Below are positions 7,278 to 12,877 of a DNA stretch of 64,000 nt, one piece after another; within the stretch, counting starts at the first letter, position 1; every line of letters begins with the position of its first letter. The position numbers and the translations under genes were made by a program. The notes beneath the pieces were generated by a model, which did not search any database, had not been told where the DNA came from, and saw nothing but the letters and a program-made list of their open reading frames with translations. Source of the DNA: Chromatiales bacterium (GTDB lineage: Bacteria; Pseudomonadota; Gammaproteobacteria; Steroidobacterales; GCA-2729495); contig CP070671.1 in assembly GCA_020351875.1 (NCBI GenBank), forward strand, positions 2,265,253-2,329,252. The letters run 5' to 3'.

Positions 7278-8501
7278 ATGAGCGATGCCTCCCGCGCCCG
7301 GCTGATCCTGCTGTTCGGTCTCGTGACCTATGGCATGGGCCAGTCCCTGCTGTACGTGATTTTCGGTCCGCTCGCCCGGGAAATCGGCCTGGCGGAATGG
7401 CAGTTCGGGGTGCTGATCGCCGCGTCGAATGTCGCCATCGTGATTTTCTCGCCGATGTGGGGGCGGGCCAGCGAGTCGCTGGGGCGCAAGGCCGTTTACC
7501 TTCTCGGCATGGTGGGCTACGCGGTGGGTTATGCGGCGCTCGCTTTCGGTATCCAGGCCGGACTCTGGGGCTGGTTCGCGCCGATGCCGCTGTTCCTGGT
7601 CCTGCTCGGTGCGCGACTCGTCTACGGCGTGATGGCGGCGGCGATCCAGCCGGCAGCCACAGCCTATGTGGCCGATACCACCGACGCTGCCGGTCGCGGC
7701 CAGGGCATGGCGCTGATCGCCGCATCCGGGGGCATCGGCACCGTGATCGGCCCTGCTTTCGGTGGCCTGCTGGCCCGCTTCGGCGCAGTGGTGCCCATGT
7801 ACTCGGCGGCCGTGCTTGCCCTCGTCGCGATCGCGGTCACGATGGCGACGCTCGCTGAGCCGGCGCGCCATGTGCACGCGGAAAAGCCGCAGCGGTTGCG
7901 CGTGGGTGACAGCCGCGTGTTTCCGTACCTGCTTGGCTGGTTCGTCGTGTTCATGGTGTTTACCGGCGTGCAGGTCGTCACGCCCTTCGTGATCGAAGAC
8001 CGTTTTGGTGTGTCCGGTCGCGAAGACATCACGCAGGTTGCGATGTTTGCGCTGTTGTCCATGGCGCTGGTCACGCTGGTCGTGCAGATCGTCGTGATGC
8101 AGGTCTGGAAGTTGAGCCCGCGATTCCTGTTGCGCTATTCCTTCTTCCTGTTCGCGGCGTCCCTGGTCTTGCTGGTGCTGGCAAGTCAGCTTTGGCAGCT
8201 TTACGCCGTGTTCGCGCTGATGGGTCTGTCCGTCGCGCTGGCCACGCCGGGGCTGAATGCGGCTGCGAGCCTGAATGTGGAAACACAGGAACAGGGCGCG
8301 GTGGCCGGCCTGCTGGCGGCCGCACCGGCTTTCGGCATGATCTTTGGTCCGGCGATCGGCGGCGCGGTCTACAACCTGTCGCCGGCGACGCCGATGCTTG
8401 GCGGCGCGGCCCTGAGCGCAGCCGTTGGTATCTACTTCCTGTTCATCGCGATCCCGGATCCGCAGTCCGCAGCGCCGCTCGAGTCTGCTGCGACCGACTG
8501 A
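7278..8501 (+). CDS. MFS transporter (drug/metabolite efflux type)
   Basis: 407 residues with about 12 transmembrane helices. Major-facilitator motif A lies between helices 2 and 3 (GRASESLGRKAV), and a weaker copy fits the second half. Glycine-rich helices 4-5 (IAASGGIGTVIGPAFGGLLARFG) match the antiporter motif C region of drug:proton antiporters such as TetA and Bcr, so an efflux role is likely. Substrate unknown. The ATG at 7278 follows a short leader with a candidate -10 at 7185. The convergent gene at 8529 encodes a maleate-isomerase-like enzyme; there is no evidence that the two work together. Confidence 0.85.
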   Translation: MSDASRARLILLFGLVTYGMGQSLLYVIFGPLAREIGLAEWQFGVLIAASNVAIVIFSPMWGRASESLGRKAVYLLGMVGYAVGYAALAFGIQAGLWGWFAPMPLFLVLLGARLVYGVMAAAIQPAATAYVADTTDAAGRGQGMALIAASGGIGTVIGPAFGGLLARFGAVVPMYSAAVLALVAIAVTMATLAEPARHVHAEKPQRLRVGDSRVFPYLLGWFVVFMVFTGVQVVTPFVIEDRFGVSGREDITQVAMFALLSMALVTLVVQIVVMQVWKLSPRFLLRYSFFLFAASLVLLVLASQLWQLYAVFALMGLSVALATPGLNAAASLNVETQEQGAVAGLLAAAPAFGMIFGPAIGGAVYNLSPATPMLGGAALSAAVGIYFLFIAIPDPQSAAPLESAATD

Positions 8502-8528: not shown

Positions 8529-9281
8529 CTACAGCGTGTCGACGCGCGCGGTCCAGGCCGCCACGTCCGTCGCTGCGGTTCCATCCAGACCGATGATGTC
8601 GAACAGGCTCGCTGCGAGGCACAGGTTCGACGACACGGCCGGCAGGCCCGTGTCTGCCTGCGCTGCCTGAATGGCGCGCAGCGACGGCATGCCGGTGCCG
8701 CTGAACAACACTGCGTCCACGCCGTCGAGCTCCAGCGATTGCAGTACCTCCAGCGCCTGGTGACTGCCGAGTTCGTAAATCTGGTGCAGATCGGCGCTCG
8801 GCAGGCGCGCGTGGCCGACGGCGCTCACGCGAAAGCCACGCGCGGTCCAGTACTCCACGCCCGGGTTCAGCAGCCACTCCGGGTACGGCGCGATCATCGC
8901 GATGGTTTCCGCGCCCAGCGCGTTGAGGCGAGACTCGATGGCGGCAGCGGCCGTCACCACCGGGTAGCCGAAACGGTCCTGCAGGCGGGCCACCAGGTCT
9001 CGTTCTTCCCGGTGACCGTACAAGTACGTGGAACCGGTGCAGGCGAAACCGAACGCGTCGAGCCGCAACGAGTCGTAGCGTTCGAGCGTCTGCTCGAGGT
9101 CGTTTATATAAGACAGCAATCGCCGCCGGGGGTCGTCGTCCAGGCAGACCAGGCGTGCGCTCACCAGGCCGACGCCGGCCGGCCGCAGGGCCAGCATCTC
9201 CGCTTCCACGGTGGGGTTCGCCTGCGGGGTGCCGACGCCGAGCAGGCCCTTCGACGCGTATTCGGTGGGGCGAATGCTCAT
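8529..9281 (-). CDS. Maleate cis-trans isomerase / arylmalonate decarboxylase family protein
   Basis: 250 residues of the Asp/Glu racemase-like fold. The first active-site cysteine is in FACTGSTYLYG (about residue 80). In maleate isomerases a second cysteine follows in the C-terminal half; here the matching loop reads LFSGTGMPSLRAI, with no cysteine. Family knowledge: isomerases and racemases use two cysteines, whereas arylmalonate decarboxylase has only the second. This protein therefore has the opposite single-cysteine arrangement, and its reaction cannot be assigned. Its ATG overlaps the stop of the upstream hydrolase gene by 4 bases (9278-9281), so the two are translationally coupled. Confidence 0.75.
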   Translation of the reverse strand: MSIRPTEYASKGLLGVGTPQANPTVEAEMLALRPAGVGLVSARLVCLDDDPRRRLLSYINDLEQTLERYDSLRLDAFGFACTGSTYLYGHREERDLVARLQDRFGYPVVTAAAAIESRLNALGAETIAMIAPYPEWLLNPGVEYWTARGFRVSAVGHARLPSADLHQIYELGSHQALEVLQSLELDGVDAVLFSGTGMPSLRAIQAAQADTGLPAVSSNLCLAASLFDIIGLDGTAATDVAAWTARVDTL

Positions 9282-10228
9282 CCGGACGTCAGGAAACCCT
9301 TCATGTCGACCAGTCCGGCGGCCACGGCGTCCGCACCCTCTTCGTGCACGTAATGCCCGACGCCCGGCACTTTCACCGTGCGGTCATTGGGCAGGCCCGC
9401 CTCCAGGCGCGCGAGTTCCTCCGGCGTCTTGCGGCGGTCGAGTTCGCCCCAGACGATGACGGTTGGCAGCTTCGCTTCCGCCAGCAGCGGCTCTTCGTTC
9501 GGTGCTTCATACTGGCCCATCATCGTGGTCATGCCGGCGAGGTAGCCTTCGCTTTGCGACGCGCGCTGCAGGTTATCCATGACTTCGTCGGTGACGATGT
9601 CGGGATTGATGAAGGATCCCTTGATCATGCTTTCCCGGAATTCACGGTTGCCGAGCTGTTTCGCCAGCAGCCGCTGCATCGGAAAAAAGTAGTACTGCGC
9701 AATCGCCGGTACGCCGGAGTTCAGGATGCCCGGGTTCATCAATACCAGGCCGCGCACCTCCGGTTCGCTGACCGCGACCCGCAGCGCAATCGAGCCGCCC
9801 AGCGAATGGCCGCCCACGATCACGTTGTTCAGTCCCAGCGTACGAATGAAATCGCCCATCACGCGCGCCTGGTTCGCATTGCGGTAGTCCCAGTCCGCCG
9901 GCTTGGCGGACAGACCGAAGCCGGGCATGTCCACGGCGATAACGTGATAGTCGTTCGCCAGCAGCGGTGCCAGCAGGCGAAACGACTGCAGTGAATTGCC
10001 GAAGCCATGAATCAACACGAGCGACGGGCGGTTCGGCCCCGCCTGTCCGTATCCCCGGTACCGCAGCTCCAGGCCATCCACCGTCACGAACCGGTCCTCG
10101 GGGCCGGCCAGCTGCCGCGCCGGCACTTCCTCGATGCCGGACGGCCAGTAAGCAAGCGCCACGAGCGCCAGCCACGCAACGGCCACAAAGCCCGCAAGGC
10201 CGATGGTAATTCTGCGCAGTATTTTCAT
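9278..10228 (-). CDS. Membrane-anchored alpha/beta hydrolase
   Basis: 316 residues. An N-terminal hydrophobic helix (about 8-28) acts as a signal anchor, so the enzyme probably faces the periplasm. The hydrolase core has the oxyanion motif HGFGN (His74), the nucleophile elbow GHSLGG (Ser142), the acid in WGELDRR (Asp263) and the catalytic histidine in GVGHYVHEE (His291), a complete triad. MhpC/epoxide-hydrolase-like esterases look like this. It is the first gene of a two-gene operon with the maleate-isomerase-like gene, overlapping it by 4 bases. Substrate unknown. Confidence 0.85.
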   Translation of the reverse strand: MKILRRITIGLAGFVAVAWLALVALAYWPSGIEEVPARQLAGPEDRFVTVDGLELRYRGYGQAGPNRPSLVLIHGFGNSLQSFRLLAPLLANDYHVIAVDMPGFGLSAKPADWDYRNANQARVMGDFIRTLGLNNVIVGGHSLGGSIALRVAVSEPEVRGLVLMNPGILNSGVPAIAQYYFFPMQRLLAKQLGNREFRESMIKGSFINPDIVTDEVMDNLQRASQSEGYLAGMTTMMGQYEAPNEEPLLAEAKLPTVIVWGELDRRKTPEELARLEAGLPNDRTVKVPGVGHYVHEEGADAVAAGLVDMKGFLTSG

Positions 10229-10334
10229 TATGTCGATTCCGCTTTCGTGTGCGGATTCTAGTGCCTGGCGGAAATGGTGTCAGACGCTATTTCCCACCGT
10301 TCAACCCTGCCGGCCGCTGCCCGTTGTACATGCC

Positions 10335-10881
10335 ATGAGCAGTCGAAGCCACAATGCCATTGCGGTGAACCGCTTTGGTCTCGGCGCGCGGCCGGCCGCT
10401 TCCTGGCGGCGCCGGACGGACCGCGGGTTGCCGTACTGGAGTCCACGGGCTGGGATACGCATGCGAACCAGGGCGCGGCGACCGGTCAGCTCGCGAACCG
10501 CCTGCAAGGGCTGGACCGGGGCCTGGAGGCGCTGGCTGGTGCACTGGGCCCGGCCTGGGCCGACACCGCCGTCCTGGTCGTGACCGAGTTCGGCCGTACC
10601 GTGGCCGTCAACGGCACGAACGGCACTGATCACGGCACCGCCAGCTGCGCCTTCCTGCTGGGCGGCGCGGTGGCCGGCGGGCGGGGGAGGTCACCGACTG
10701 GCCCGGGCTCGCTGTCGGCGACCTCCAGGACGGCCGGGACCTGCGGCCCACGATGGATCTGCGACGTCTGTTCAAAGGCGTACTGCACGATCACCTGGGT
10801 GTTGCCCCGGGCCAACTGGAGGACCGCGTATTTCCCGGCAGCCGCGCAGCCGCGCCATTAGGAAATCTCCTTAGCGCGTAG
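10335..10881 (+). pseudogene. Deletion fossil: DUF1800 start fused to DUF1501 C-terminus, plus frameshift
   Basis: From the ATG at 10335 the first codons give AIAVNRFGLGARP, the conserved beginning of DUF1800 proteins. Around 10391-10400 (inside a GGCCGGCCG stretch) the reading jumps frame and becomes the C-terminal part of a DUF1501 protein: FLAAPDGPRVAVLE, GWDTHANQ, VVTEFGRTVAVNGTNGTDHG. At the G-run near 10683-10687 the frame shifts again and continues as EVTDWPGL, RDLRPTMDLRRLF and VFPGS to the TAG at 10879-10881. DUF1800 and DUF1501 genes are normally adjacent in this order and encode large exported proteins of unknown function. About 2.5-3 kb of coding sequence is therefore missing (inferred from usual family sizes). 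Confidence 0.8.
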
Positions 10882-10940
10882 CGCGGACGTCGCCGTCGGA
10901 GGTGGTAGCATCAACAGGAAGGTTTTCCGGAGATCTGTTA

Positions 10941-11345
10941 ATGCGCCGTCTGGTCGTCACGTTCCTGTTGTTCTTGAATTTCGCTCTGGCCGGGCCCGCG
11001 GCAGCACAGAGCTTCGCCGATTATTCGGGCCGCGACCTGTACATGCGGTTTTGCGCCAGTTGTCATGGCGTGACTGGCGCCGGTGACGGCCCGGTTGGCC
11101 AGGGCCTGGCGGTCATGGTGCCCGACCTGACGACCCTGCGGCGTCGGTCCGGCGGGCAGATGAACACCGCGCAGCTGCGGGAGATCATTGACGGGCGCGC
11201 GGTGGTGATTTCGCACGGCACGCGCACGATGCCGGTCTGGGGTTACGAGTTCTGGGTTGAAGAGGGCGCAGACATGGAGGCCGAGGCCGCGGTACGCACC
11301 ATTGTCGATCAGCTGATCGCGTACCTGAGGTCCCTGCAGACCTGA
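10941..11345 (+). CDS. Periplasmic c-type cytochrome
   Basis: 134 residues. A signal peptide (residues 1-22, ending in PAAAQ) is followed by one heme-binding CASCH at residues 38-42 in the context GRDLYMRFCASCHGVTGAGDG, the class I cytochrome c pattern. A distal methionine is probably in TRTMPVWGYEFW. Expected role: a soluble periplasmic electron carrier or the cytochrome subunit of a dehydrogenase. The UbiD-family gene starts 38 bases downstream on the same strand. The start at 10941 follows a GGAGATC ribosome region. The donor enzyme is not identifiable from the window. Confidence 0.85.
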   Translation: MRRLVVTFLLFLNFALAGPAAAQSFADYSGRDLYMRFCASCHGVTGAGDGPVGQGLAVMVPDLTTLRRRSGGQMNTAQLREIIDGRAVVISHGTRTMPVWGYEFWVEEGADMEAEAAVRTIVDQLIAYLRSLQT

Positions 11346-11383: not shown

Positions 11384-12877
11384 ATGACTGGTTCCGCCCC
11401 CGCGCCTTTCGATTCCATTCGCGACTACGTGCGGGCGCTGGAGTCTCGTGGCCGGCTGTTGCGCGTGGAGTCCATGGACCAGGACCGCTACGAACTGACC
11501 GCCTTCGCCTATCGCCTGGTCGATCGTTACGGCAAGGAGAGTGCGCCCGCGTTCCTGGTAGAAAAGCTCAAGATCGGCGGCGAGTGGCGCGACGGACCGG
11601 TGCTCGCGAATCTCTACGGCAGCTGGCCCGATGAGGCCCTGCTGTTCGGGGTGCCCGATATCAACGATGACCAGCACGGGATGTACCGCGCGGTCATCGA
11701 ACAGCTCACCGCCCGGCTGGATGACGCTGGCATGTGGCAGCGTATCCCACCGGTGACGGTGGAACCTGCCGATGCACCGTGTAAGGAAGTGCGACTCACC
11801 GGCGACGACATCGACATCGAGCGTTTCGCGTTTCTGCAAAGCAATCCCGCCGACGCCGGCCGCTATATCAACATGGGCGCCGTTTTCGTCAGCGATCCGG
11901 AATTCGGCAGTAACGTGGGCACCTACCGCTGCCAGATCAAGGGCCCGCGCAAGATCGGCGTGAACCCGGAACCCGGCCAGCACGGCTGGTTGTTGCTGAA
12001 TGAAATGAAGCGCCGCGGCGACAAGGTCGCGAAAGTTGCGGTGGCGGTGGCGCCGGATCCGCTGACCTTCTGCGCAAGCAGTACGAAAATGGCCGGCTAC
12101 AAGGAAGACGAGCTGGAGTTCGTCGGTGGCCTGCGGGGCAGTCCGCTGAAGGTGGTGCGCTGCGAAACCTGCGACATTCACGTGCCGGCCAATTCCGAAT
12201 TCGTGATCGAAGGCGAAATTCCGCTGGACGAGTTTGAGACGGAAGGTCCGTACGGTGAAATGTACGGTTTCCAGGGACCGGAGAAGAAAGACAACTTCTT
12301 CATGCACATCAAGGCGGTGACGCATCGCCGGAATCCGTGGGTACTGAATTCCTTTACCGGACTCACCTGGGACATGCCGAAGGCGCCACAGGTGTCGTCG
12401 AACCTGTTCATGTACAAGCGGCTGATTCCGAACCTGACAGGTCTCTACTCACCCGCCGGCGCGAACGGCGTGATCGTGATCAGCATCCAGAAGCGTTTTC
12501 CCGGGCAGGGTGTGTCGGCGGGCCAGTACGTTGCCGCGAACCCGGCGCTGAACAAGGTGGTGATCGTCGTGGATGACGACGTCGACATCATGGACCCGGG
12601 CGCGGTACTGAAGGCCCTGGGCGCGCGCTGGCAGCCGGCGGCCAGCGTGATGGTGCCGCAGACGCAGATGATGATGCCGGACCCGAGCCGGCAGACGCCG
12701 ATGTTGTCGAGCAAGATCGTGATCGACGCCACGCGCCAGCTGCCGCAGGAGGGCGGTCCGGCCTGGTGGCCGGCCACCAATCGTGAATTGCTGGAGCAGG
12801 GCGCAAAAGACGCCTTCGCATTGGTGGACGAAAACTGGGAGACTTACCTGGAGCGCTGGAAAGAGAGCGACAAGTAA
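11384..12877 (+). CDS. UbiD family decarboxylase (prenylated-FMN dependent)
   Basis: 497 residues, full UbiD length. The N-terminal region holds RDYVRALESRGRLLRVE and the central region SNVGTYRCQIKGPRKIGVNPEPGQH. The UbiD active-site stretch with FETEGPYGEMYGF and the C-terminal region with VVIVVDDDVDIMDP, about 195 residues further on, are both present. UbiD enzymes (de)carboxylate aromatic or unsaturated acids using prenylated FMN made by UbiX. No UbiX gene lies in the window, so the cofactor must come from elsewhere. It is preceded by a cytochrome c gene (38 bases) and followed by a coiled-coil gene (15 bases). The genuine ubiquinone enzyme cannot be excluded, but this context fits a catabolic paralogue better. 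Confidence 0.9.
   Translation: MTGSAPAPFDSIRDYVRALESRGRLLRVESMDQDRYELTAFAYRLVDRYGKESAPAFLVEKLKIGGEWRDGPVLANLYGSWPDEALLFGVPDINDDQHGMYRAVIEQLTARLDDAGMWQRIPPVTVEPADAPCKEVRLTGDDIDIERFAFLQSNPADAGRYINMGAVFVSDPEFGSNVGTYRCQIKGPRKIGVNPEPGQHGWLLLNEMKRRGDKVAKVAVAVAPDPLTFCASSTKMAGYKEDELEFVGGLRGSPLKVVRCETCDIHVPANSEFVIEGEIPLDEFETEGPYGEMYGFQGPEKKDNFFMHIKAVTHRRNPWVLNSFTGLTWDMPKAPQVSSNLFMYKRLIPNLTGLYSPAGANGVIVISIQKRFPGQGVSAGQYVAANPALNKVVIVVDDDVDIMDPGAVLKALGARWQPAASVMVPQTQMMMPDPSRQTPMLSSKIVIDATRQLPQEGGPAWWPATNRELLEQGAKDAFALVDENWETYLERWKESDK

Follow-up and report, generated by a model that had tools for sequence, protein, structure and literature searches.

Recent remnant of a DUF1800-DUF1501 gene pair in a Chromatiales bacterium, with a probable separate loss in a sister species

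The window, a stretch of 64,000 nucleotides (G000:C1:2265253-2329252) from a genome assembled as a single contig of 3.49 Mb, contains on its forward strand the remains of a DUF1800 gene joined to those of a DUF1501 gene. These remains lie between two genes that served as synteny anchors, a divergent alpha/beta hydrolase gene on the reverse strand (9278..10228) and a cytochrome c gene on the forward strand (10938..11345), the latter followed by a UbiD-family decarboxylase gene (11384..12877, forward strand). Beyond the hydrolase are the genes of an Amdase-like protein (8529-9281) and of an MFS transporter (7278-8501), both named from Pfam. Orthologs of the transporter, the Amdase-like protein, the hydrolase and the cytochrome were found in G003, a genome of the same genus, with 76, 55, 65 and 69% identity respectively, the hydrolase ortholog standing beside an intact pair; the cytochrome also has an ortholog (73%) in the sister species G001.

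The remnant begins with an ATG at position 10335, the first 20 codons of which match the DUF1800 N-terminus (AIAVNRFGLGARP). This 5′ end, from the start codon to about codon 21 (10335..10395, forward strand), is supported by its translation and by an N-terminal profile, and lines up with the start of the G003 DUF1800 gene. Our own N-terminal profile, built from related DUF1800 proteins, recovered it with an E value of 4.2e-7 when a 604-base stretch was scanned alone and of 4.4e-6 in a six-frame scan that covered the window together with three stretches of G001 (2,440 segments); PF08811 itself gave no match to this start at a threshold of 1e-3 or 1. The C-terminal part of DUF1501 follows in a first reading frame (10388..10684, forward strand), identified by its identity to G003 and by a match to positions 236-331 of the PF07394 profile (E value = 7.8e-26, G000:C1:2275649-2275936, that is window 10397-10684; 8.2e-26 in a Pfam repeat). 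Alignment with G003 traces this frame from 10385-10388 onward, slightly ahead of the profile match. The G003 alignment and the reading frames place a further lesion in a G-rich run (10685..10692, forward strand), where the frame shifts by a net +2 (or -1), and beyond it the last 62 codons of DUF1501 and the stop codon at 10879-10881 are found in a shifted frame (10693..10881, forward strand; tail profile E value = 1.4e-24 among the same 2,440 segments). Both halves are thus recognised far above chance.

The first-pass annotation had described positions 10335-10881 as the start of a DUF1800 gene running into the end of a DUF1501 gene. Its coordinates are correct, from the DUF1800 ATG through the DUF1501 stop, and the profiles bear out the junction of the two halves, though these are in different frames; the frameshift at 10685-10692 is an extra lesion absent from that annotation. 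Compared with the DUF1800 (PF08811)-DUF1501 (PF07394) unit, the remnant has the same families in the same order but retains about 21 first codons of the one and about 160 last codons (the last 40%) of the other, distributed over three frames: the DUF1800 start, the DUF1501 part and the DUF1501 tail. Neither gene is complete and open, with about 2.06 kb gone, a frame change at the junction and the second frameshift, and judged from its reading frames the remnant can encode neither the ancestral DUF1800 nor the ancestral DUF1501 protein.

A published study (PMC5122149) places DUF1800 and DUF1501 in one predicted operon, reports a twin-arginine export motif in the DUF1501 protein and describes the pair as co-localised with bacterial chitin synthase genes. 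The N-terminus of the G003 DUF1501 protein likewise has a twin-arginine-like stretch, recognised by eye, and export, as earlier proposed, is a reasonable expectation for the DUF1501 member of the pair. At the 80 loci nearest to the remnant, both genes are adjacent and nearly full length in 72 cases, which agrees with the earlier description of the two genes as normally adjacent; several of the remaining 8 are cut by contig ends. At another of the related loci (L122 3934-6474, MAG C_No_T20_C_bin.38) DUF1800 and DUF1501 each occupy two frames, broken by frame changes, which is perhaps another decaying pair, or a sequencing error. A search of 246 genomes of the order returned a DUF1501 match at an E value of 1e-20 or better in 63, among which, besides the remnant itself, a single genome (G224, two pieces on two contigs) has no near-full-length match, and two others (G236 and G242) have DUF1501 reported in two pieces that jointly span the protein. 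Truncation of DUF1501 is therefore rare among the 246 genomes.

The intact counterpart of the remnant was reached in G003 (contig C86, JASJBD010000019.1, MAG MO_074.B1) by searches of the relatives with PF07394 and with the cytochrome protein. On this contig the MFS transporter, the Amdase-like protein and the alpha/beta hydrolase are followed divergently by DUF1800 and DUF1501, which are open over 469 and 398 aa respectively, so that the two genomes of one genus have the same hydrolase-adjacent site and differ in that both genes are intact in G003. The remnant is 75% identical to the G003 DUF1501 protein over 95 residues. Calculated from the alignment coordinates, a single deletion of 2,061 bp relative to G003 accounts for the window, in which 547 of about 2,609 bases of the pair are kept; we infer that one event made this gap, as the first-pass annotation had suggested in stating that one deletion removed most of both genes. 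The comparison with relatives keeping both genes that it had called for yields an intact ortholog at the same site, as expected of a pseudogene formed in place by deletion.

Synteny is loose on the downstream side: in G003, other genes occupying 4-5 kb separate the cytochrome from DUF1501. The G003 cytochrome ortholog lies at a contig end, separated from DUF1501 by a Rieske protein gene and two others (L062 340-5613), namely one for a 999-aa protein that resembles DUF748 by eye and one that, also by eye, looks lipoprotein-like. These intervening genes, absent from the window and from G001, may reflect either an insertion or a rearrangement. A tree built on 170 kept columns places the remnant, G003 and the Steroidobacteraceae rows in one clade, in which the remnant and G003 do not come out as sisters (SH-aLRT 80, an open fork). 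Because the tree leaves the sister question open, the orthology of the remnant and the G003 copy rests on synteny.

The junction itself (10385..10396, forward strand) can be read from both sides. Taken as DUF1800, positions 10386-10395 encode A-R-P plus the opening base of the G codon that usually follows; taken as DUF1501, the sequence from 10385 or 10388 on corresponds to R-A-A-G in G003. Thus 8-11 bases, assignable to both sides in the G003 alignments, form a possible microhomology; we set the boundaries manually, using the DUF1800 consensus GLGARPG and the RAAG of the G003 DUF1501. Bases that fit both sides are what a deletion between short homologies would leave. A short-homology deletion at a GC-rich GGCCGGCCG-type stretch is accordingly compatible with the junction as it reads. 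The earlier proposal that the GGCCGGCCG stretch could have promoted the deletion is compatible with this dual fit of 8-11 bp, but G003 lacks it, the two break sites there having 5 bases in common, and the relatives show no excess: across 73 of them the mean longest shared run at the two break sites was 5.26, against 5.05 at random sites of the same genes, and a shared run of 10 or more bases was found in 0 of the 73.

The age of the loss was estimated by comparing the remnant with 30 intact DUF1501 genes, that is G003 and 29 of 30 loci fetched with the G003 protein from the 63 matching genomes among the 246 searched, the remnant not being used as query. With conservation in 95% or more of the intact genes as the threshold, 56 columns qualify, and one of them is changed in the remnant. 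Leaving out each intact gene in turn, we found that 19 of the 30 change none (mean 0.77, worst 5), and the end branch of the remnant in the tree measures 0.29, near the median of 0.28 and below the 0.55 of G003. From a single change over some 120 nonsynonymous sites we calculate a 95% upper bound of about 0.04 per site for the neutral change since constraint was lost. By comparison, the proportion of synonymous differences (pS) between the window and its nearest relative, G001, is 0.59-0.76 in 10 flanking genes, so that synonymous sites are close to saturation and a loss predating the split of the two species should show visible decay. Because the remnant is no worse conserved than intact genes, the loss is recent on the scale of the G000/G001 divergence, and the earlier impression of a recent loss with well-kept motifs is upheld. 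An earlier version of this test (0 of 28 conserved columns broken, rank 1 of 68) was discarded: exact peptide matches to the remnant had served to fetch the majority of its rows, so that the choice of conserved columns was biased in favour of the remnant.

Furthermore, we found that the sister species has lost the pair at this site too, with different ends. In G001, a DUF1800-DUF1501 remnant occupies the end of contig C10, immediately before the cytochrome gene (L063 9984-10236, reverse strand). Between the contig end and the cytochrome gene lie 252 bases. They encode DUF1800 codons ~22-68 (E value = 1.8e-12; 1e-11 among the 2,440 segments) and continue in frame into a tail similar to the final 20 codons of DUF1501 (L-Q-T-R-V-F-P-G), after which comes the cytochrome. 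The tail, near the contig end, is a weak match on its own and scores 5.9 bits against 2.8 for the best of 200 shuffles, with an E value of 1.1 among the 2,440 segments, of which an unrelated one from the window scores slightly higher (6.7 bits); it occupies the expected position, before the cytochrome. Elsewhere in G001, which is 94% complete, no DUF1501 and no DUF1800 match was found at the thresholds used, and a copy in the missing sequence is possible. Contig C21 of G001, which carries the hydrolase, also ends at the same place, and the assembly therefore breaks inside the decayed unit. Downstream, in the same species, UbiD is missing from its place after the cytochrome, whose immediate neighbour is the gene that comes next (L063 8921-9984).

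G001 keeps DUF1800 codons that are gone from the window, and the window keeps DUF1501 codons that are absent from G001; neither arrangement can therefore derive from the other. Given these different end points, together with an undecayed remnant against near-saturated synonymous sites, two separate losses in the G000 and G001 lineages are probable and the best reading of the sequences. The first-pass annotation had also raised the prospect of relatives encoding the same short fusion as a functional gene; among the three compared, G001 has other end points, G003 has the intact pair and G002 has neither at this site, and the short joins are not a single functional fusion gene common to the relatives.

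The pair is not gone from the genome as a whole. A second, intact pair at C1:1809791-1812308 (L075) shows ~40% identity across the remnant, has a close relative in G003:C74 and groups in the tree with the second copy of G003; from this identity and this grouping it is a different paralogue. The loss described earlier is thus real for this copy, but concerns one paralogue, and a distant second pair remains. In a survey of the family, 29 of 40 genomes had a hydrolase ortholog at an E value of 1e-60 or better, and in the 29 stretches around it (reaching ~1.5 kb to either side, except where a contig ended sooner) DUF1800/DUF1501 stood beside the hydrolase in G000 and G003 only, the G001 remnant being on another contig end. 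The pair at this site was thus found only in this genus. Several family members have the hydrolase, cytochrome and UbiD genes adjacent without the pair, and in G002 the hydrolase is directly beside UbiD, with neither pair nor cytochrome. The pair may have been gained in the genus or lost elsewhere.

Taken together, we conclude with high confidence that the locus is a recent pseudogene remnant and that the pair was lost in place, most simply by one deletion of ~2.06 kb; G001 probably lost its copy separately. The ancestor of G000, G001 and G003 would have carried DUF1800 followed by DUF1501 between the divergent alpha/beta hydrolase and cytochrome c genes. In the window lineage a single ~2.06 kb deletion, possibly a short-homology event of the slippage or end-joining type in a GC-rich stretch, would have joined DUF1800 codon 21 to the last 40% of DUF1501, with a small frameshift arising before or after it. 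The sister species would have lost the same pair separately, with different end points.

Other origins of the locus are much less probable. An assembler could have dropped or collapsed ~2 kb of a pair that is intact in the genome, and an assembly alone, even one in a single contig, leaves some room for such an error; this is highly improbable, as the sole other pair, at ~40% identity over the remnant, offers no similar copy to collapse with, and G001 is also without the pair at this site. Just as improbable as such an error is a functional small gene, for example a DUF1501 C-terminal domain expressed from an ATG at 10274. The open frame from there to 10861 (195 aa) does include the well-conserved DUF1501 part, a conservation that the youth of the remnant explains equally, but its first ~37 codons cover intergenic sequence and read the DUF1800 start out of frame, its last third has left the frame of the DUF1501 tail, and it is without the first 60% of DUF1501, including the twin-arginine-like N-terminal stretch seen by eye in G003. 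The arrangement in G001 differs as well.

It is very unlikely, too, that one shared first deletion preceded the split of G000 and G001 and that later trimming produced the two different ends. The middle of the pair is absent from both genomes and the retained pieces fit a smaller common gap; however, dead sequence of the age implied by the flanking pS should have decayed far more than one change in 56 conserved columns. Least credible of these origins is the arrival of the remnant by transfer as a partial gene: the tree leaves its sister relation to G003 open, yet site, orientation and divergent hydrolase neighbour are those of the intact G003 pair, and a DUF1800 remnant precedes the same cytochrome gene in G001. 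We regard it as unlikely, though less so than these origins, that this genus acquired the pair at the site separating the hydrolase from the cytochrome-UbiD genes, and that it is being removed repeatedly under selection. On such an account the deletions, by sparing the region of the DUF1800 start and the final DUF1501 codons, would shorten the leader and place the cytochrome-UbiD genes behind the promoter of the pair itself.

As a recent remnant of a pair lost in place, the locus resembles the young bacterial pseudogenes under deletion described by Kuo and Ochman (2010, PMC2916853), in being a recently inactivated gene that is being deleted; it differs in that their study concerns Salmonella, whereas in the present lineage, a different one, a single large deletion runs across two neighbouring genes. 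Among the matches listed for literature on DUF1800, DUF1501 and bacterial pseudogene deletion (titles and abstract beginnings), none concerned this locus, and a literature search combining pseudogene, microhomology, deletion, fusion and parallel loss found nothing.

Collectively, the locus is an ordinary recent gene-loss scar of a well-known kind, to which the repeated loss nearby is a modest addition. For annotation it is a warning, in that the 195-aa open frame should not be recorded as a real gene. It is also a clean and datable case, in which the pair has probably been lost twice at one site while a third member of the genus retains it, and the genus may thereby serve as a small natural comparison for the role of the DUF1800/DUF1501 pair.
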